From positions 4,117,501 to 4,181,500 of the forward strand of contig NZ_JACMTR010000002.1 in assembly GCF_014267175.1 (NCBI RefSeq): a stretch of DNA of 64,000 nucleotides. The letters run 5' to 3'. Source of the DNA: Pseudonocardia sp. C8. Lineage in GTDB: Bacteria > Actinomycetota > Actinomycetes > Mycobacteriales > Pseudonocardiaceae. Every line of letters begins with the position of its first letter. The stretch's first letter is position 1. The notes beneath the pieces are model-generated. The model did no database searches. It was not told where the DNA came from and was given only the letters and a program-made list of their open reading frames with translations. Both the position numbers and the translations under genes were made by a program. Shown in pieces: positions 35,700 to 57,583 of this stretch.

Positions 35700-36270
35700 C
35701 GCCGCCACGGGTGGACTCCGCACGCTCGGAGTCGCCACGGGGCATCCCGACGACCGGGCCCGGCCGCGCACGCCCGCGCGGCCGGGCTCGTGTGCGTGCG
35801 CGGACCGTGTGCGGTCGCGGCCGGGATCGCGTGCGTTCGCAGCCGGGCCCGCGTGCGTTCGCGGCCGGGCCGGCGTGCGTTCGCGGGCGGGCCGGCGTGC
35901 GTTCGCGGCCACGGCCGTATGGGGGTCGGCCGGGCCTGCGCGGTTTCCGTCCGGCGTCGCCCGGCGACCGGAGAGCGCGCCGGTGGGGCTCCGGCCCGCC
36001 GTACGGAACCGATTCACCCCGCCCGGCGCGGGCACGATGCCGCTCACGGTCGGGTCCCCGTTGGCGGGCACTCCGACCACAACCTGGGGCGGTCTCGGGC
36101 GTTGAACCCGTCGACCGGCACCTGCAGAACCGGGAGCCCCTGTCGGTGCCGGGCACCATCGGGACACCGGGTACCGCGGTCACGACCGCGGACCCGGTGT
36201 CCGGTGGGACCTTCATCGTCCGCGAGCGCGTCCTGCGCCGGGTGTCGCGCGAGCCCCTCCGGGCTGCATG
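35700..36270. repeat. Intergenic region with five tandem 22-bp repeats
   Basis: Five copies of a 22-base unit run 35809-35918, each beginning GTGCG(G/T)TCGC with a C/G-rich remainder (starts 35809, 35831, 35853, 35875, 35897). Before them is a weaker partial copy near 35790. The unit is not a multiple of three and no start codon/ribosome site combination in the region supports a gene. The rest of the region up to the 62-bp array shows nothing recognisable. Confidence 0.65.
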
Positions 36271-36863
36271 ATCATCAGCACGGAAACGCCCCACCAAGGG
36301 CGAAAACGCGATCCCGGCGCCCGACCGACACATCGATCAGCACGCTCTCGCCCCGCCGAGGGCGGAAACGTGAGCCTGGCTCCCCGCCCCCAGATCGATC
36401 AGCACCCTCTCGCCCCGCCGAGGGCGAAAACGTGAACCTCGCCCCCGCCCGCCGAGATCGATCAGCACCCTCTCGCCCTGCCGAGGGCGAAAACGTGCAC
36501 CAGGACGCCCACGCACATATCGATCAGCACCCTCCCGCCCGACCAAGGGAGAAATCGCGCAACTCACCCTGACGTCGCATGATCATCAGCACGGAAACGC
36601 CCCATCAAGGGCGAAAACGCGACCCTGGCGCCCGACCGACACATCGATCAGCACGCTCTCGCCCCGCCGAGGGCGGAAACGTGAGCCTGGCTCCCCGCCC
36701 CCAGATCGATCAGCACCCTCTCGCCCCGCCGAGGGCGGAAACGTGAGCCTGACCCCCGCGCTCCCAGATCGATCAGCGCGTTCCTGCCCCGGAGGTGGCG
36801 ACATCGTGCGAGTCACCCCGGCGGAGCGCGTCGCGATCAGCACGTGGCCGAGGGCGAGACGCC
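36271..36863. repeat. Array A of ten ~62-bp palindromic repeats
   Basis: ATCAG occurs at 36274, 36336, 36398, 36461, 36523, 36585, 36647, 36709, 36772 and 36836, giving spacings of 62 to 64. Each unit has ATCGATCAGCAC, then a near-palindrome around CGCCC-N6-GGGCGAAAACG(T/C)G, then 20-22 bases of variable sequence. A 311-base segment containing units 1-3 is repeated as units 6-8. It lies between the convergent ends of gltD and the DedA gene. On the opposite strand the core matches arrays B and C. Confidence 0.85.
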
Positions 36864-49724: not shown

Positions 49725-51053
49725 TCAGCGGGCGCGGCGGTCCACCAGCCGCTGCAGCTTCCCGACCGACCGCTCCAGGGTGTCCGGGTCGACCACCTCG
49801 CAGGACACCGTGACCCCGACCGTCTCCTTCACGGCCCGCACCAGCTCGGCCGCGGCCGGCGCCCGCCGCTCCGCGGGCGTGTCGGGCCGGGCCTCGACCC
49901 GCACCCCGAGCACGTCCATCCGGCCCTCGGTCGCCAGCACCAGCTGGAAGTGCGGGGCGAGCCCGGGGGTGCGCAGCACGATCTCCTCGATCTGGGTCGG
50001 GAAGACGTTCACGCCCCGCAGGATGATCATGTCGTCGGAGCGGCCGGTGATCTTGGCCATCCGCCGCATCTGGGGCCGCGCGGTGCCCGGCCGCAGCGTC
50101 GTCAGGTCCCGGGTGCGGTACCGGATGATCGGCAGCGCCTCCTTGGTCAGGCTGGTGAACAGCAACTCGCCCTCCTCGCCGTCCGGGAGCGGGGTGCCGT
50201 CGACCGGGTCGACGACCTCGGGCAGGAAGTGGTCCTCCCAGATGTGCAGGCCGTCCTTGGTCTCCACGCACTCCTGGGAGACGCCGGGCCCCATCACCTC
50301 GGAGAGGCCGTAGATGTCCACGGCGTGCATGTTCGTGCGTTCCTCGATCTCGGCCCGCATCTGCTCGGTCCACGGCTCGGCGCCGAAGATTCCCACCTGC
50401 AGCGACGTCGCCCGCGGGTCGACGCCCTGGCGCTCGAACTCGTCGAGCAGGGTGAGCATGTAGCTCGGGGTCAGCATGATGACCTCGGGCTCGAAATCGC
50501 CGATCAGCTGGACCTGGCGCGGGGTCATGCCGCCGGAGACCGGGATCGCCGTCGCGCCCAGCTTCTCGACGCCGTAGTGCGCGCCGAGGCCGCCGGTGAA
50601 CAGTCCGTACCCGTAGGCGACGTGCACCCGGTGCCCGGGACGGCCGCCCGCCGCCCGGATCGAGCGCGCCACCAGCGACGCCCACCGGTCGATGTCGCCG
50701 GCCGTGTACCCGACGACGGTGGGCTTCCCGGTCGTGCCGGACGACGCGTGGATCCGCGCGACCCGCTCCCGCGGCACGGCGAACATGCCGAACGGGTAGG
50801 TCTCGCGCAGGTCGGCCTTGGTGGTCGTCGGGAACTTCGCGATGTCGGCCAGCTCGCGGCAGTCGTCCGGGTGCACGCCCTGCGCGTCGAACTTCGCCCG
50901 GTAGTGCGGGACGTTCTCGTAGGCGTGCCGCAGCGTCCACTGCAGACGTTCCAGCTGGAGCGCGCGCAGCTCGTCGACCGACATCCGCTCGGCCGGGTCC
51001 AGGAGCTCGGGCGGGGGCGCCTCCCCCAGCCGGGAGCTCGCCGAGATCGTCAC
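49725..51053 (-). CDS. paaK: Phenylacetate-CoA ligase
   Basis: The 442-residue enzyme activates phenylacetate to phenylacetyl-CoA with ATP, opening the paa pathway. The adenylate-forming motif ASSGTTGKPTVVGYT is near residue 105. Further typical phrases are VHVAYGYGLFTGGLGAHYG and GAEPWTEQMRAEIEE, and the C-terminal part has RSDDMIILRGVNVFPTQIEE. Length and order match PaaK. The start overlaps the paaZ stop by four bases, making a paaZ-paaK operon. Confidence 0.96.
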   Translation of the reverse strand: MTISASSRLGEAPPPELLDPAERMSVDELRALQLERLQWTLRHAYENVPHYRAKFDAQGVHPDDCRELADIAKFPTTTKADLRETYPFGMFAVPRERVARIHASSGTTGKPTVVGYTAGDIDRWASLVARSIRAAGGRPGHRVHVAYGYGLFTGGLGAHYGVEKLGATAIPVSGGMTPRQVQLIGDFEPEVIMLTPSYMLTLLDEFERQGVDPRATSLQVGIFGAEPWTEQMRAEIEERTNMHAVDIYGLSEVMGPGVSQECVETKDGLHIWEDHFLPEVVDPVDGTPLPDGEEGELLFTSLTKEALPIIRYRTRDLTTLRPGTARPQMRRMAKITGRSDDMIILRGVNVFPTQIEEIVLRTPGLAPHFQLVLATEGRMDVLGVRVEARPDTPAERRAPAAAELVRAVKETVGVTVSCEVVDPDTLERSVGKLQRLVDRRAR

Positions 51054-53086
51054 TGCCGGGCCTCCTTCTTCGCGACCAGGGTGAGGACGTCGTAGCGGGC
51101 GACGGACTCGCCGTCCTGCCGCGTGACGTCGGCGTCCCAGCGGACCTCGCCGTAGCCGGCGGACTCGCGCGGGGTGATCTGCTTGCAGGTCAGGGTCACG
51201 GTGAGCTCGTCGTCGAACCGGACCGGGGTGAGGAACCGCAGCCCGTCGACGCCGAAGTTGGCCAGCACCGGCCCCGGGTCCGGGTCGACGAACAGGCCCG
51301 CGGCCAGCGAGACGACCAGGTAGCCGTGGGCGACGCGCTGCCCGAACAGCGGGTTGGCCGCGGCCGCCTCCTCGTCCATGTGCGCGTAGAACGTGTCGCC
51401 GGTGAACTCGGCGAAGTGCTCGACGTCCTCCCGGGTCACCCGGCGCGGGCCGGCGACCAGGCAGTCGCCGGGCCGGAGCTCCTCGAGGTGCTTGCGGAAC
51501 GGGTGCACATCGGACTCACGGCGCCCGGCGCCGGTGACCCACCGGCCGGTGATCGCGGCCAGCGAGTCCGGGTCGCCCTGCACGGCGGTGCGCTGCATGT
51601 GGTGGAACACGCCGCGGACACCGCCCATCTCCTCGCCGCCGCCGGCCCGGCCGGGCCCGCCGTGGACCAGCTGCGGCAGCGGCGAGCCGTGCCCGGTGGA
51701 CTCCTTCGCGTCCCGGGCGTTGAGCACGTGCACCCGGCCGTGGAACGGCGCGACGCCCAGCACCACCTCGCGCACGAACTCCGGGTCCGCGCTCACCACC
51801 GAGCCGACCAGCGAGCCCTGCCCGCGGGCCGCGTGGTCGACCAGCTGCGCGGTGGAGTCGTAGGGCAGCACCGTCGAGACCGGGCCGAACGCCTCGACCT
51901 CGTGCGGCTCTGCCCGGTCCGGGTCGCCGACCAGCAGCAGCGGGGAGACGAACGCGCCCCGGTCGGCGTCGGCACCGGCCACCTCGACGCGGTCGGGGTC
52001 ACCGAACACGATGCGGCCGGCGTCGCGCAGGGCCTTCACGCTGCGCCGGACCTCCTCGCGCTGGTCGAGGCTCGCCAGCGCACCCATCCGGACCCCCTCG
52101 GCGTCCGGGGCGCCGACGACGACCTTCGCCAGGCGCTCGGACACCGCCTCGACGACGGCGTCGACCTGCTGCCGGGGCACGAACGCGCGCCGGACGGCGG
52201 TGCACTTCTGGCCGGCCTTGACCGTCATCTCGGTGGTCAGCGCCTTGACGAACAGGGCGAACTCCTCGGTGCCCGGCGTCGCGTCGGGGCCGAGCGCGGC
52301 CAGGTTCAGCGAGTCGGCCTCGGCGGAGAACCGCACCGCGTTGCGCACGATCGCCGGATGGCTGCGCAGCGTCTGCGCGGTCGCCGCCGACCCGGTGAAC
52401 GACACCAGGTCCTGGCCGGTGAGGTGCTCGAACGTCTCGCCGAGCGAGCCGGCGACGAACTGCACCGCGCCGTCCGGGAGCAGGCCGGAGCCGACGATCA
52501 GCTCGACCAGCTCCGCGGTGAGGAACGCGGTCGGCGACGCCGGCTTGATCAGGCTCGGGACGCCGGCGAGCAGCGCGGGCGCCAGCTTCTCCAGCGGCCC
52601 CCACACCGGGAAGTTGAACGCGTTGACCTGCACCGCGACGCCGTGCAGCGGGGTGAGGAGGTGCTGGCCGACGAACGTGCCGCCCTTGCCCAGCGGTTCG
52701 ACGGCGCCCTCGACGAAGAAGGCTTCGTTGGGCAGCTCGCGCTTGGCCTTCGAGGCGTAGGCGAGCAGCACGCCGATACCGCCGTCGATGTCGAACTTCG
52801 AGTCGGCGAGCGTGGCGCCGGTGCGCTTCGAGACGGCGTAGAGCTGCTCGCGGTGCTCGCGCAGGTGCTGGCCGAGCGCCTTGAGCAGGGCGGCGCGCTG
52901 GTGGAAGGTGAGCTCGCGCAGGGCGGGGCCACCGGTGCGGCGGCCGTACTCGAGCGCGCCGGGGAGGTCGAGACCCTCGGCCGAGATCCGGGCGACCTCC
53001 TCCCCGGTCACCGCGTCGTACAGCGGACGCCCGTCCCCGGTCCCGGTCTGCCAGGAACCCGAGAGGTGGCTGCGGAGCAGGGTCAT
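51050..53086 (-). CDS. paaZ: Bifunctional oxepin-CoA hydrolase / aldehyde dehydrogenase
   Basis: The 678-residue two-domain enzyme opens the oxepin ring and oxidises the aldehyde formed. The aldehyde dehydrogenase domain (residues ~1-515) has the nucleophile in VKAGQKCTAVRRAF and a Glu in RFSAEADSLN. The C-terminal MaoC hydratase domain includes EFTGDTFYAHMDEEAAAANPLFGQRVAHGYLVVS with the catalytic Asp and His pair. Its promoter region (53087-53275) is shared with the divergent paaG-like gene, and two copies of the 19-bp palindrome lie in it. Both active sites appear intact. Confidence 0.95.
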   Translation of the reverse strand: MTLLRSHLSGSWQTGTGDGRPLYDAVTGEEVARISAEGLDLPGALEYGRRTGGPALRELTFHQRAALLKALGQHLREHREQLYAVSKRTGATLADSKFDIDGGIGVLLAYASKAKRELPNEAFFVEGAVEPLGKGGTFVGQHLLTPLHGVAVQVNAFNFPVWGPLEKLAPALLAGVPSLIKPASPTAFLTAELVELIVGSGLLPDGAVQFVAGSLGETFEHLTGQDLVSFTGSAATAQTLRSHPAIVRNAVRFSAEADSLNLAALGPDATPGTEEFALFVKALTTEMTVKAGQKCTAVRRAFVPRQQVDAVVEAVSERLAKVVVGAPDAEGVRMGALASLDQREEVRRSVKALRDAGRIVFGDPDRVEVAGADADRGAFVSPLLLVGDPDRAEPHEVEAFGPVSTVLPYDSTAQLVDHAARGQGSLVGSVVSADPEFVREVVLGVAPFHGRVHVLNARDAKESTGHGSPLPQLVHGGPGRAGGGEEMGGVRGVFHHMQRTAVQGDPDSLAAITGRWVTGAGRRESDVHPFRKHLEELRPGDCLVAGPRRVTREDVEHFAEFTGDTFYAHMDEEAAAANPLFGQRVAHGYLVVSLAAGLFVDPDPGPVLANFGVDGLRFLTPVRFDDELTVTLTCKQITPRESAGYGEVRWDADVTRQDGESVARYDVLTLVAKKEARQ

Positions 53087-53275: not shown

Positions 53276-54085
53276 ATGGCCGACACGTCCGACCCCGCCG
53301 TTCTCGTCACCCACGACGACACCGACCCGGCCGTCGCCGTGGTCACCCTGAACCGTCCGGCGAAGTACAACGCGCTCACCGAGGAGCTCAAGGAGGCGCT
53401 GCTCACCGCCGTCGCCGGGGTGGCGGGCGACGAGAACGTCCGCGCCGTCGTCCTCACCGGTGCCGGGAAGGCGTTCTGCGTCGGGCAGGACCTCGGCGAG
53501 CACGCGGCCGCGCTCGAGAAGGACGCCGTGTCGTCGTTCGACACCGTCCGCGACCACTACAACCCGCTCGTCCTGGCGCTGACCGGCACGCCGAAGCCGG
53601 TGATCGCCGCGATCAACGGGCCGTGCGTCGGCGCCGGGCTGGGTCTCGCCCTCGCGGCCGACCTGCGGGTGGCGGCGGAAGGACTGAAGTTCACGACCGC
53701 ATTCACCGCGATCGGGCTCACCGCCGACACCGGGCTGTCGGCGAGCCTGCCGCACGCCGTCGGCGTCTCGCGGGCGACCGAGCTGCTCCTGCTCGGCGAG
53801 CAGTTCACCGCCGACGACGCCCGCAACTGGGGCATCGTGCGTGACGTCGTCCCGGCCGACCAGGTGCTCGACACCGCGCTGGATCTGGCCCGGCGGCTCG
53901 CCACGGGCCCGACCCGCGCCTACGCCGAGGTGAAGAGCGCGATCCGCTACGGCGCCGTGAACGAGCTCCCCGCCGTCCTCGAGCACGAGGCCGACGCCCA
54001 GGCCCGGCTGGCGACCACGGCCGACCACCAGAACGCGGTGGCCGACTTCCTCGCCAAGCGGACCCCGACGTTCGAGGGACGATGA
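53276..54085 (+). CDS. paaG: Enoyl-CoA hydratase/isomerase, PaaG-like
   Basis: The 269-residue crotonase-fold protein has the CoA-binding oxyanion phrases in FCVGQDLGEH and NGPCVGAGLGLALAADLRVA. The residue placed like the catalytic Asp of PaaG is in GLTADTGLSASLP. The HYNPLVLALTGTPKPVIAAING segment and the FLAKRTPTFEG end match E. coli PaaG (1,2-epoxyphenylacetyl-CoA isomerase) better than PaaF. It is divergent from paaZ with shared operators. A PaaF-type hydratase role cannot be ruled out. Confidence 0.75.
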   Translation: MADTSDPAVLVTHDDTDPAVAVVTLNRPAKYNALTEELKEALLTAVAGVAGDENVRAVVLTGAGKAFCVGQDLGEHAAALEKDAVSSFDTVRDHYNPLVLALTGTPKPVIAAINGPCVGAGLGLALAADLRVAAEGLKFTTAFTAIGLTADTGLSASLPHAVGVSRATELLLLGEQFTADDARNWGIVRDVVPADQVLDTALDLARRLATGPTRAYAEVKSAIRYGAVNELPAVLEHEADAQARLATTADHQNAVADFLAKRTPTFEGR

Positions 54086-54089
54086 TCCC

Positions 54090-54689
54090 GTGAGCCAGGC
54101 ACCGGTGAAGCGCGCCCGCCGGCCCAGCGGCGGGCGCGACCAGCTGCTCGAGATCGCGGTCGGCGAGTTCATCACCCGCGGCTACGACGCGACGTCGATG
54201 GAGGACCTCTCCCGCGCGGCCGGGATCACCAAGTCGTCGTTCTACCACCACTTCGCCGGCAAGGAGGCGCTGCTGCGCGCGGCACTCGAGCGCGCGGTGG
54301 ACGGCCTGTTCGGTGTCCTCGCCCTGCCCGCCGCGCGGGAGGGCAGCCCGGCCGGGCGGATCCGGGTCATCCTCGCCGAGCAGGTCCGGGTGCTCATGGC
54401 CGAGCTGCCGTACGTGACCCTGCTGCTGCGGGTCCGCGGCAACACCGAGACCGAACGGTGGGCGCTCGAGCAGCGGCGCGCCTTCGACGCGGCGATCCGG
54501 GACCTCGTGCGCGAGGCGGTCGACGCCGGCGAGGTCCGCTCCGACGTCGACCCGGCCCTCGCCGCGCGGCTGCTGTCGGGCGTCGTGAACTCGATCGTCG
54601 AGTGGTACCGCCCGGGGCGGCCCGGCACCGAGACCCTGCCCGATGACGTCGTGCGGGCCGCCTTCCACGGGATCGTCCCGGCCACCTGA
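54090..54689 (+). CDS. TetR-family regulator, probable PaaR
   Basis: The 199-residue regulator has an N-terminal helix-turn-helix, SMEDLSRAAGITKSSFYHHFAGKEALL (about residues 37-63), typical of TetR. The C-terminal ligand region is helical. It starts with GTG four bases after the paaG-like stop, so both are co-transcribed. Three copies of a TetR-like palindrome upstream of paaZ, paaG-like and paaA make it the likely phenylacetyl-CoA-responsive repressor (PaaR). That identity is inferred from position and sites, not from a known sequence match. Confidence 0.8.
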   Translation: MSQAPVKRARRPSGGRDQLLEIAVGEFITRGYDATSMEDLSRAAGITKSSFYHHFAGKEALLRAALERAVDGLFGVLALPAAREGSPAGRIRVILAEQVRVLMAELPYVTLLLRVRGNTETERWALEQRRAFDAAIRDLVREAVDAGEVRSDVDPALAARLLSGVVNSIVEWYRPGRPGTETLPDDVVRAAFHGIVPAT

Positions 54690-54795
54690 GCGCGCGCGGC
54701 GTCCCGGGTTCCCGGTCGACCCGCACGTCGCTGCCGTTCGCAGGGCGCCCTCGGACCTCGAGCCTTCCGGGCGCCGACGCGCTGCCCGTGGGACG

Positions 54796-55213
54796 AGCAC
54801 GCACTTGCCCCGGCGCGGGCGAAAGCGCGCAGCCCACCGGCCGACACCTGCTCGACTCGCACGCAATCGCCCTGGCGCGGACGAGGACGCGCAGCTCAGC
54901 GACCGACGCCTCCCCGACTCGCACGAAACCGCCCCGTCGCCGGCGAAAACGCGCAGCTCACCGACCGACGCCTCCCGACTCGCACGCAATCGCCCTCGTG
55001 CGGGCGAAAACGCGCAGCTCACCGACCCGACGGCTCCGCGACTCGCACGAAACCGCCCCGAGACGGGCGAAAACGTGCAGCTCACCTGCCGGCGCCTCCC
55101 CGAGACGCACGAAACCGCCGCGGCAGGGGCCACGGCGCGCAACCCGCCGACAGGTCACGTCTCGACCTGCGCGCAACCGCCCCGACACGGGCATGAACGC
55201 GGGCATGAACGCG
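54796..55213. repeat. Array B of seven ~62-bp palindromic repeats
   Basis: CRCACG-type unit starts recur at spacings of 61 to 63 from 54796 to about 55167 (54856, 54918, 54979, 55042, 55105, 55167). Each carries CGCCC-N6-GGGCGAAAACGCGCAGCTCACCGAC in more or less complete form. The core is the same as in arrays A and C and has the orientation of C. It lies between the TetR stop (54689) and the DUF559 stop (55289). Positions 54690-54795 hold nothing recognisable. Confidence 0.85.
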
Positions 55214-55288
55214 CCACCCAGCGGCGAACTACTCGACCTGCACAGGACGGCGCGCGCCGGCAGCCGGACTTCCGGACCCGCGGACCGC

Positions 55289-56236
55289 TCACGCCGACAG
55301 CGGCGCCATGCCCGCGGCCGCACGTTGGAACAGGAAGCGTTCGACCACCTGCGCGAGGTGCTCCCGACGCCCCAGGACGTGCTCGGCGGGCGGCCGAAGG
55401 ATCTCCCAGCCGTGCCGGGTCAGGAACGCCTGCTTCGCGAGGTCATTGCGGGCGCGCTCGGGGTCCAGGTGCTGGTCACCGTCGTACTCGATGCCGAGCA
55501 ACACGTCCGGATAGGCAAGATCGATCCGATACTTGCCGACCGGATGCTGCAGGACCGGCGGCCGTACGCCGTAGTCGTGCAGCGCCAGACGGATCCTCGT
55601 CTCCATGGGCGACTCCGCGAGGGGGCTGGCCAGCGCCACGAAGTCCGGCAGCCGGATCACGCCGCGCTCGCCGGGATGCCGCGTGGCGAGCTCGAGCACG
55701 TCCCCGGGCGCGAACCTCCCGACCCGGGACAGCGCGTCGAGCGCGATCACCGCCTCGATCCGATCCTCCCGCCGAGCGAGGTCGAACGCGGTCCGCACGG
55801 GGGACGTCGTCGTCACGGTCCGCCCCGGAACGTACCGGTCACGCCATCCCGGAACCGGGATCCGCACCCCAGTCCGGATCTCCCCCGGCAGCGCACGGCC
55901 GTGTCGCATCTGCAGACCCTCCTGCGAGCGCCGGTGACCGCCCGTCACCAGGACCTCGACCGGAACGCCGCGGGGTGCGCACTCCGCGCCGAGGGCCTCG
56001 GCCGCCGCCCAACCGCCGAGCGCGGTCGGCGCCGGTGACGCATCCGCCGCAAGGTCGGCGAGTGCACCCACCGCCAGCGCGCCGGCCTCGCAGCGCAGGA
56101 GGTACGTCTCCTCGACGTCGGCCGCGACGAAGACGCCGCGGAACGGGCTCCGGAACGCCGGGCCCCGGAGCTGCTTGGGAGTGACGAGGCCGGCGGCGAC
56201 CGCCGCCGAGCCGATGAACGGTCGTGTGAGATCCAT
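55289..56236 (-). CDS. DUF559-family (Vsr/PD-(D/E)XK-like) protein with AbiEi-type N-terminus
   Basis: The 315-residue protein ends in a DUF559 fold: the segment LHDYGVRPPVLQHPVGKYRIDLAYPDVLLGIEYDGDQHL has the D...E-x-D pattern of very-short-patch-repair/PD-(D/E)XK nucleases (residues ~215-255), followed by a Trp- and Leu-rich ending (GWEILRPPAEHVLGRREHL). The N-terminal 90 residues (FIGSAAVAAGLVTPKQLRGPAFRSPFRGVFVA) resemble the AbiEi/type-IV antitoxin winged domain. Catalytic acidic residues look present. It is flanked by the 62-bp arrays B and C and divides the paa locus. Such genes are frequent in actinobacteria, but their function is unknown. The ATG at 56234 is used as start. Confidence 0.75.
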   Translation of the reverse strand: MDLTRPFIGSAAVAAGLVTPKQLRGPAFRSPFRGVFVAADVEETYLLRCEAGALAVGALADLAADASPAPTALGGWAAAEALGAECAPRGVPVEVLVTGGHRRSQEGLQMRHGRALPGEIRTGVRIPVPGWRDRYVPGRTVTTTSPVRTAFDLARREDRIEAVIALDALSRVGRFAPGDVLELATRHPGERGVIRLPDFVALASPLAESPMETRIRLALHDYGVRPPVLQHPVGKYRIDLAYPDVLLGIEYDGDQHLDPERARNDLAKQAFLTRHGWEILRPPAEHVLGRREHLAQVVERFLFQRAAAGMAPLSA

Positions 56237-56576
56237 GGGGCTTGGACGACCCCGGGCGCGCACCGGTTCCACCTCGCATCGATCCGGCACCGGCAACCGC
56301 GGTCCGGGTCTGCCCCAGCTCGGCCTGCCCCAACCCGGCCGGGCCCCGCCCTACGGGGTCCGGCCCGGCCATCTCCTGCCCGGTCCGGCCCGGTCCGGCC
56401 ATCCCGAGCCCGGTCCGGCCATCCGAGCCCGGTCCGGCCCCTCCCGGCTCGGCCCGGCCCCTCCCGGCTCGGTCCGGCCCGCGATCAACTTCCCGCCTCG
56501 CGCGAGTCACATCGCGCCGATCGACAGGGAACCCGCCCGGGTAGCGGCGGCACGCCCGGCGCACCGGGCGTCGACT
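56237..56576. other. Non-coding region with low-complexity GGTCCGGCC-type repeats
   Basis: A stretch at about 56340-56480 consists of overlapping short repeats based on CGGTCCGGCC and CCCGAGCC. No gene, ribosome site or clear promoter was found here. It leads into array C at 56577. The upstream part holds the 5' region of the DUF559 gene. Confidence 0.5.
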
Positions 56577-56932
56577 CGCACGTACTGCCCTGTCGGAGAC
56601 ACCAATGCGCTGATCGAGTGCACGCCCACGTTCGATCAGCGCCCTCGTGCCCGACCGAGACACAATCGTGCTGATCATCATCCGACATCCTGGTCCGTGA
56701 CCTGCACTTTTCCGCCCCGCCTCGGGCGGAAACGCGTAGATCGATCGCGCACAAACGGCTCACCCGCACGCTCCCGCCCTCGCCGCGACCAAGACGCGTT
56801 GATCGACCGCACCTCGCGCGCCCACGCGCACGATTCCGCCCCGCCACGGGCGACAACGCGCTGATCGACAACTCGCGCACGAGCCAGCCGCACGATTTGG
56901 CCCCACCACAGACGACATCGTGCTGATCGACA
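56577..56932. repeat. Array C of six ~62-bp palindromic repeats
   Basis: The landmark CTGATCGA (or a close variant) occurs at 56610, 56671, 56737, 56799, 56861 and 56923 (spacing 61, 66, 62, 62, 62). Each is preceded by a CGCACG-NNN-CCGCCC-N6-GGGCGA-type palindrome in better or worse condition, clearest at 56827-56860. It lies upstream of both the DUF559 gene and the paaA operon. Confidence 0.8.
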
Positions 56933-57065
56933 GGCGCCGGACGCCCGGCCGGCTGAACTCGCCTCGCGAAAGGCGGAGACACGGCGGTCGCGGACGGGTC
57001 GGCGACCGCGGTCGTGCCGGCGCCGACGGCGCGGCGCCCGGTACCCGCCCCCAGCACCCAATACC

Positions 57066-57142
57066 CAGCACCCGCCACCCCCGGCACCCCGGCGCTCGCC
57101 TCCCCAGCACCCGCCACCCCGGCACCCCGGCGCTCGCCTCCC
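57066..57142. repeat. Two tandem copies of a 39-bp C-rich repeat
   Basis: CAGCACCCGCCACC... at 57066-57104 recurs at 57105-57142 with one base missing, ending CGGCGCTCGCCTCCC in both. Further degenerate GGCACCC-type units continue to about 57260. No gene is supported. Confidence 0.6.
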
Positions 57143-57553
57143 CGGTACCCGGCACCCCCGGCACTCGCCCTCGGCACCCGGCACCTACCACCACTCGGGA
57201 CCCCGCCGCCCCGGCACCCTGGCACTCACCCCCGGCACGTCGGCACCTCGGCATCTCGACACCCCGGCACCTCGCCACCCGAGAGGACCGGCCCGAGACG
57301 GGCACACCCATGGCGCAACGCAACCGTGTACACGACCCACGCCGCACCCCGCGACGCGGACCCGGCTCCCGACGACCGCCGGCTCGTCACCCACCGAGGG
57401 CGCGCCACCGCGCCCGGCTGCGCGATGGCACCGGGTCGCGCCGCCCACCGGCCGGGTACCGCCGCCCCGCGCCGGCGACCGGAGGAAACCGGCCGCGCCC
57501 GTCACATCCGGGACGGGGTTGCGCACCGGGGGCTCGGTGCGCCACACTCGTAG
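57143..57553. other. Non-coding region before paaA; nothing else recognised
   Basis: Several long open frames cross this region but all are of low complexity, lack ribosome sites and overlap in different frames, as expected of high-GC non-coding DNA. The region ends in the operator at 57554-57572. The distance to paaA suggests room for a long leader or separate promoters. Confidence 0.5.
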
Positions 57554-57572
57554 CCGAACGAACATTCGGTAC
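57554..57572. promoter_or_regulatory. TetR/PaaR operator, site 3 (paaA operon)
   Basis: CCGAACGAACATTCGGTAC fits the same CCGA-M-CGAAC-NN-TCGGT pattern as the two sites between paaZ and paaG. It ends 11 bases before the paaA start and overlaps the ribosome-site region (GGAGGTG at 57574), so binding could block initiation directly. Confidence 0.7.
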
Positions 57573-57583
57573 GGAGGTGTCCA

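Follow-up and report, generated by a model that had tools for sequence, protein, structure and literature searches.

The DUF559-family nuclease gene in the phenylacetate (paa) locus of a Pseudonocardia genome lies between two arrays of a 44-bp palindrome, and genes of this family often have matching repeats of their own on either side. The best explanation, which we regard as probable, is a two-component REPtron-like element consisting of a nuclease and of the dispersed long dyad that it most likely recognises, for which we infer binding, cutting and mobility. The window (the whole 64-kb stretch of DNA that was analysed) corresponds to C2:4117501-4181500 of a 6.24-Mb genome in 2 contigs, called G000 in comparisons with other genomes of the genus. 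The genus assignment follows from the nearest homologues, of which those with a name belong to Pseudonocardia species. The features of the window were as follows.

36266-36821, no strand: array A, 9 units of the family of arrays B and C, in a convergent gap
49725-51053, minus strand: paaK
51050-53086, minus strand: paaZ
53276-54085, plus strand: enoyl-CoA hydratase gene
54090-54689, plus strand: TetR-family regulator gene, left border of the insertion
54785-55214, no strand: array B, 7 imperfect 44-bp palindromes spaced 61-63 bp, in the convergent gap between the TetR and DUF559 genes
55289-56236, minus strand: DUF559 / REase_MTES_1575 gene, 315 aa
56568-56935, no strand: array C, 4 clear and 2 degenerate units, in the divergent gap between the DUF559 gene and paaA
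57554-57569, no strand: operator-like palindrome CCGAACGAACATTCGG before paaA
57584-58543, plus strand: paaA, right border of the insertion

The order TetR, array B, DUF559, array C, paaA bore out the earlier note, which had placed a DUF559 gene between two arrays of 62-bp period in the paa locus. The clear units of array C span 56699-56928, its two degenerate units having been judged by eye in an alignment, and the protein-family scan at the locus covered six neighbouring proteins. Array A, 18 kb from the array B/DUF559 site, has no adjoining DUF559 gene. The common orientation that had been ascribed to the arrays has no intrinsic meaning, since the units are imperfect palindromes; an intrinsic unit orientation was rejected, the strand call being set by G/T skew and hence by the replichore.

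The paa locus was compared in 22 genomes, our own included. A DUF559 gene lay between TetR and paaA in 9 of them, one (G066) held a remnant, 11 had none and one (G044) was not comparable; G065, added after this comparison, also carries the gene at this place. In the 11 DUF559-free genomes the TetR-paaA gap measured about 100-250 bp, or about 480-490 bp where it contained a short ORF. As the TetR-paaA neighbourhood is otherwise shared, its lack of DUF559 in 11 of 22 genomes indicates that the gene was inserted. The island-free version of the locus that the earlier note had proposed to seek in related genomes therefore exists, and the insertion is supported, with the qualification that the supposed island is one inserted gene; to call the paa genes split was too strong, because nothing but DUF559, joined in some species by another short ORF, stands between them. 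The inserted gene is reversed in G043 and G054, and in G002 it is split over two frames. The dyad of this genome, recognisable by its GCACG motif, flanks the paa DUF559 gene in G000, G002 and G058 and one side of the G066 remnant, and is absent beside it in G043, G054, G059, G042, G001 and G057.

Arrays A, B and C share a unit, an imperfect 44-bp palindrome with the symmetric consensus GATCAGCACGTTTTCGCCC-N6-GGGCGAAAACGTGCTGATC, repeated with a period of 62 bp. A symmetric matrix found 121 matches above 16 bits in 864 kb of this genome (40 stretches of 20 kb plus the 64-kb window) and 0 in one 2-mer shuffle of the same DNA. The 39 stretches that remained after exclusion of the window and of the stretch chosen for its dnaA gene contained 15 sites with 90 units in all; for the whole genome this would amount to about 117 sites and about 700 units. 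Units were spaced by 62 bp in 81 of 103 cases and by 63 bp in 10. Within an array the 44-bp units were on average 75% identical and the 18-bp linkers were also related (63%), so that the near-identical repeats and unique spacers of a CRISPR were not found. Since arrays occur genome-wide and searches of the genome found four DUF559-type genes, arrays as such need no adjoining DUF559 gene, and by extrapolation most of them have no such neighbour.

An initial view that the arrays were independent of DUF559 had arisen from a search for a single palindrome type, and was abandoned once other types were found beside DUF559 genes. The paa gap of G054 contains another 44-bp palindrome, a perfect one (GAGTGTCACGTGAGGGCT...AGCCCTCACGTGACACTC), to which one in G043 is related; that of G001 contains a GGAACGTT-type palindrome with a spacing of 61 bp, and those of G042 and G059 contain weaker palindromes. 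Second DUF559 copies in G042 and G066 likewise have their own matching palindromes on both sides. Thus the link that the earlier note had drawn between nuclease and arrays failed in its original form, arrays without DUF559 being present, and was replaced by a link of another sort, with gene-specific palindromes. It had also asked whether other DUF559 genes of this genome sit between 62-bp arrays, and two of them (L264 and L262) proved to be bracketed by different matching palindromes of their own.

This bracketing was quantified as the best 36-bp match, on either strand, between the left and the right flank of a gene. For 39 DUF559 genes of the genus, a subset of the DUF559 matches listed, the mean score was 28.1, against 23.0 (sd 2.3, n = 234) when flanks of different DUF559 genes were combined, and 14 of the 39 exceeded the 98th percentile of these mixed-flank values. 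Among genes with both flanks of at least 100 bp, a score of at least 28 was reached by 22 of 34 DUF559 genes and by 2 of 161 random genes (Fisher p = 2e-18), although p-values of this kind overstate independence because the genes counted include relatives; at a threshold of 30 the counts were 14 of 34 and 2 of 161. The random genes came from the sample of this genome and four G002 stretches, the two that passed lying in L074 and L041, and the duplicate DUF559 locus L202 was excluded from both this comparison and the set of 39. In a second control of 63 congener genes, 3 passed at 28 and 1 at 30, the latter being itself a DUF559/AbiEi_4 gene. Outside the genus, 25 DUF559 genes of other actinobacteria (Mycobacterium, Tsukamurella, Isoptericola, Microlunatus and others) had a mean of 28.3 against 21.7, and 15 of the 25, several of them close relatives, scored at least 28; 6 of 32 loci had been left out of this set and one more had a flank that was too short. 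Of the control genes from these taxa 4 of 45 scored at least 28, all of them NlpC/P60 genes of Isoptericola, whose matches we take to be probably paired riboswitches. Dyads with at least 14 of 16 pairs occurred in 36 of 96 DUF559 flanks (duplicates included) and in 11 of 91 control gaps, the repeats beside DUF559 genes being often, though not always, good palindromes whose type differs from gene to gene. A universal GCCGAG end of these repeats was rejected, its frequency being 2.6 per kb in DUF559 flanks of the genus, 3.3 in those of other taxa and 2.2 in control gaps.

The exact core pattern of the dyad was found in 17 of the 62 genomes of the genus (reversed-pattern controls, 0-2), with 152 matches in this genome, 38 in G043, 12 in G066, 10 in G042, 9 in G054, 8 in G058, 6 in G061, 5 in G002 and at most 4 in each remaining genome. 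The G043 copies were also arranged as arrays, and the sites inspected in G042 and G002 each held a solo, nearly symmetric element. Four dyad sites coincided between the near relatives G042 and G002, and two G000 arrays occupied the spots of a solo copy in G042 or G054. For 12 of 14 mapped sites of other species (the paa site not counted, and at least 6 other sites remaining unmapped) the exact spot was empty in this genome. Stable site positions between species were therefore rejected, the 2 of 14 coincidences with an array being no better than the 8 sites found in 54 convergent gaps of the sample, and these sequence comparisons indicate that dyad sites turn over quickly between species. The G054-type pattern, with at most 2 mismatches, occurred in 12 of 62 genomes (reversed controls, 0 in all 62), with 22 copies in G057, 17 in G053, 15 in G054, 7 each in G043 and G074, 6 in G065 and 1 in this genome; among the matches listed, copies bracketed a DUF559 gene in each of G054, G057 and G053. 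Two palindrome types are thus dispersed in many copies, and two other types of this genome recurred once or twice in the stretches sampled.

In the DUF559 tree the three genes with GCACG dyads, those of G000, G058 and G002, shared a branch (90/94, not starred), and a G000+G043+G054 grouping was rejected (p = 0.016). The adjoining hydratase, TetR and PaaA sequences rejected G000+G058+G002 (p = 7e-31) and joined G002 to G042 (100/100). For DUF559 itself a G002+G042 grouping was not rejected (p = 0.065), with the G002 gene being the one split over two frames. GTCACG-type DUF559 genes fell on two separate branches. Because the DUF559 tree groups the genes with GCACG dyads against the tree of their neighbours, nuclease and palindromes appear to travel together, partly against the adjoining genes.

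The 315-aa protein comprises an AbiEi-like part (about residues 1-204) and a nuclease part of Vsr/homing-endonuclease type (about 208-307), in which D239, E250, H256, D265, W277 and R281 are invariant and D252 is near-invariant. In a Pfam scan DUF559, a family still labelled there as of unknown function, was above and MTES_1575 slightly below the cut-off. The AbiEi-type N-terminus proposed in the earlier note had no Pfam match in the protein itself, but it was matched in 12 of 54 homologues and the predicted fold agreed with it. The predicted model joins what would be an AbiEi-antitoxin fold to a nuclease of homing-endonuclease/Vsr type, the DUF559 part having the homing-endonuclease catalytic fold in this prediction. 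An AbiEi-like DNA-binding protein, as in AbiE type IV toxin-antitoxin systems, is therefore present, and an adjoining nucleotidyltransferase toxin AbiEii is absent from the locus, the neighbours being TetR and paaA. The notion of a defence element gained no support, PADLOC matching 0 families at E<=0.001.

Whether the palindromes act as DNA or as RNA was judged from several features. Within single genomes the arms did not covary, pairing no better than arms shuffled between sites (7 genomes), and in this genome they paired less than shuffled arms even with G-U pairs allowed. Pooled over genomes the arms formed 114 of 190 pairs, against 90.8 when shuffled, which we read as concerted differences between species. 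No T-run was found at the palindromes and no Rfam match up to E 0.5 in 36000-57600, and RNA structure as the constraint was rejected on these three grounds. In other genomes and for other palindrome types, the 26 spacings below 130 bp among the matches listed clustered near 62, 72, 82 and 120-124 bp, a periodicity equalled by 0 of 5000 random sets and by 3 of 5000 when each value was counted once per genome and type. The spacing is as expected if all sites needed to lie on one face of the helix, which is suggestive only, because neighbouring copies can share a duplication.

The arrays of this genome also follow replication. A 12-unit array lies between dnaA and dnaN, and 26 of 27 sites beyond the window followed the replichore (87 and 81 units for, 18 and 4 against) when called by a strand matrix for which only the window had served as training set, with the origin (5486500) and terminus (2690000) set after the flip was seen; with the origin at dnaA and an antipodal terminus, 54 and 27 units were for and 7 and 14 against. 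Among the matches listed, the far strand flip fell between 2.670 and 2.718 Mb, within about 65 kb of the single dif-like match (2734148, 3 mismatches to what we take to be the dif consensus), which is about 16 kb beyond the flip interval. The leading strand was G/T-rich in the linkers of 27 of 27 arrays (mean 0.26) and in the units of 29 of 30. The corresponding figures were 16 of 26 for flanking gaps and 108 of 178 for gaps without an array. Simple cytosine deamination was rejected as the cause of this skew, transversions being polarised too (C>G 150 v 73, A>T 202 v 34). As part of the explanation that we favour, the 62-bp arrays would have been greatly amplified here and have acquired this strong leading-strand excess of G/T.

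The REPtron-like element would be a single-gene nuclease, an AbiEi-type DNA-reading domain fused to a Vsr/homing-endonuclease-type domain and bracketed by its dyad, further copies of which are scattered over intergenic gaps and over-represented in convergent ones. The AbiEi-antitoxin fold is known to bind paired inverted repeats, and the protein might bind the dyad as a pair of subunits on half-sites of about 22 bp and nick or cut there; repair or template switching could then copy the palindromes, and occasionally the gene, to new sites, where palindromes might multiply into arrays whose units stand about 6, 7, 8 or 12 helical turns apart. A wider reading, against which we would lean, makes the AbiEi-DUF559 nucleases of Actinobacteria as a whole the enzymes of a large class of selfish elements, undescribed so far, that maintain repeats, in which each lineage would read its own dyad of about 44-48 bp and copy it to gene ends in arrays phased by about 6, 7, 8 or 12 turns, new specificities replacing old ones at the same site, and the arrays here, that of the dnaA-dnaN gap included, would in addition be replication-polarised.

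Other readings account for parts of these data. The flanking palindromes might be only autoregulatory operators, the dispersed copies being unrelated repeats or targets of the same regulator; the predicted AbiEi-like fold would suit this, and the excerpted text of PMC7319586 describes autoregulation by AbiEi and Rv2827c through inverted repeats in their own promoters. Operators are nevertheless unlikely, for matching repeats also stand at the 3' side of the gene, the dispersed copies, by extrapolation as many as several hundred, are over-represented in convergent gaps and not in promoters, and an operator has no need of a nuclease domain whose acidic and histidine residues are invariant. We give slightly less credit to ordinary REP-like or bidirectional-terminator palindromes that accumulated in 3' gaps, with DUF559 there by chance. 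Sites in other species were in a convergent gap in 16 of 30 cases, such gaps making up 54 of 387 (14%) of those above 50 bp in the sample of this genome, REPs favour such gaps as well (PMC3733652, in excerpt), and the solo G042 and G002 copies fold at about -31 kcal/mol against -15 to -16 when shuffled; this reading leaves unexplained the occurrence of one gene-specific repeat at either flank of DUF559 genes and the conflict between trees, and it sits badly with the lack of a T-run and of within-genome covariation.

That a Y1/HUH transposase encoded elsewhere moves the palindromes, as in RAYT-type REPs, with DUF559 as a passenger, seems very unlikely: the overall anatomy is that of REPtrons as the excerpt of PMC3733652 presents them, but it is at DUF559 genes that left and right repeats match. 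Fainter still is the chance that the arrays are replication-polarity signals of KOPS type and their DUF559 neighbourhood incidental. The replichore rule at sites outside the window, the G/T-rich linkers and the flips near dnaA-dnaN and the dif-like site would all fit; yet the linkers are skewed as strongly as the dyads, which suggests composition rather than a motif that is read, the solo G042 and G002 copies are nearly symmetric, and the dyad is absent from the 1.5 kb on either side of dnaA in 8 relatives.

RAYT/REP is the nearest described system known to us. According to the excerpted text of PMC3733652, REPtrons are RAYT enzyme genes flanked by palindromes, which come in several families, lie in convergent or unidirectional gaps and form clusters, and the DUF559 system resembles them in all these respects, its enzyme gene being flanked by genome-dispersed palindromes (low-copy for two further types). 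It is not classed as a REPtron, since the defining enzyme differs: the protein between the palindromes is DUF559/MTES_1575 with an AbiEi-like part and a Vsr/homing-type nuclease, not an HUH Y1 tyrosine transposase. The dyads are also longer (about 44 bp here, against 20-40 bp), and the array period is 61-62 bp or exceeds this by about one or two helical turns. Unlike AbiEi and Rv2827c, regulators of type IV toxin-antitoxin systems, the gene has TetR and paaA rather than a nucleotidyltransferase toxin as neighbours, encodes a nuclease fusion and has repeats that stand on both sides and are dispersed. It differs from Vsr and from the homing endonuclease I-Bth0305I, presumably of EDxHD type, in its apparent AbiEi-like recognition part, the lack of an intron and the bracketing palindromes. 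MIRU/VNTR-type repeats are intergenic tandem units of similar period and variable copy number, which the arrays resemble, but for their palindromic unit, the solo forms in relatives and the link to a nuclease family. A search of the open-access literature found, to judge by titles, no related paper on palindromic or tandem repeats in Pseudonocardia, on a 62-bp repeat or on DUF559 with palindromes or in actinobacteria. The matching repeats on both sides of many DUF559 genes point to an enzyme paired with dispersed DNA repeats in a way not yet described. Such genes are found again and again in actinobacterial genomes; if their proteins read and spread the adjoining palindromes, the family would gain a function, intergenic palindromes outside the RAYT world would gain an enzyme, and the natural protein/dyad pairs could serve for learning recognition rules. 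The replication-polarised arrays offer a separate readout of strand-biased sequence change.

The operators that the paa units had been said to share were recovered in part: CCGAACGAACATTCGG is exact only once, before paaA (57554), the other copies being inexact (2 and 3 mismatches) and lying inside or beside the gap between paaZ and the hydratase gene. The same palindrome was also visible before paaA in the gap sequences compared at the paa locus.

Beyond the paa locus, two sites in the genome of Pseudonocardia sp. C8 (G000; C2 is the contig carrying the window) were recorded together with simple repeats inside the window:

G000:C2:5487076-5487862 (locus L078:7077-7862), 12-unit array of the 44-bp dyad in the dnaA-dnaN gap
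G000:C2:2734148-2734560 (locus L262), further DUF559 gene, flanked by palindromes of a type of its own (GAGTGCAGCG), and a dif-like match
window 56374-56481 and 57064-57280, additional simple repeats of the TCCGGCCCGG and CCCCGGCA types in the long DUF559-paaA gap

The dnaA-dnaN gap holding the 12-unit array is likely the oriC region of this genome, and in 8 congeners the sequence up to 1.5 kb from dnaA yielded no copy of the dyad. The DUF559 gene of L262 lies about 100 bp from the sole dif-like match of the genome, which has 3 mismatches to the dif consensus. Across the arrays in the sampled 20-kb stretches, linkers included, the leading strand was strongly G/T-rich, a bias that fell off at the array edge.

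In some congeners a short ORF, which seems GNAT-like as judged by eye only, apparently lies between the TetR gene and the DUF559 gene or paaA (loci L167 and L168 in G042 and G066; L179 and L180 in G055 and G049). Near-identical sequences, perhaps paired riboswitches, flank both sides of NlpC/P60 genes in Isoptericola (loci L222, L226, L228 and L233).
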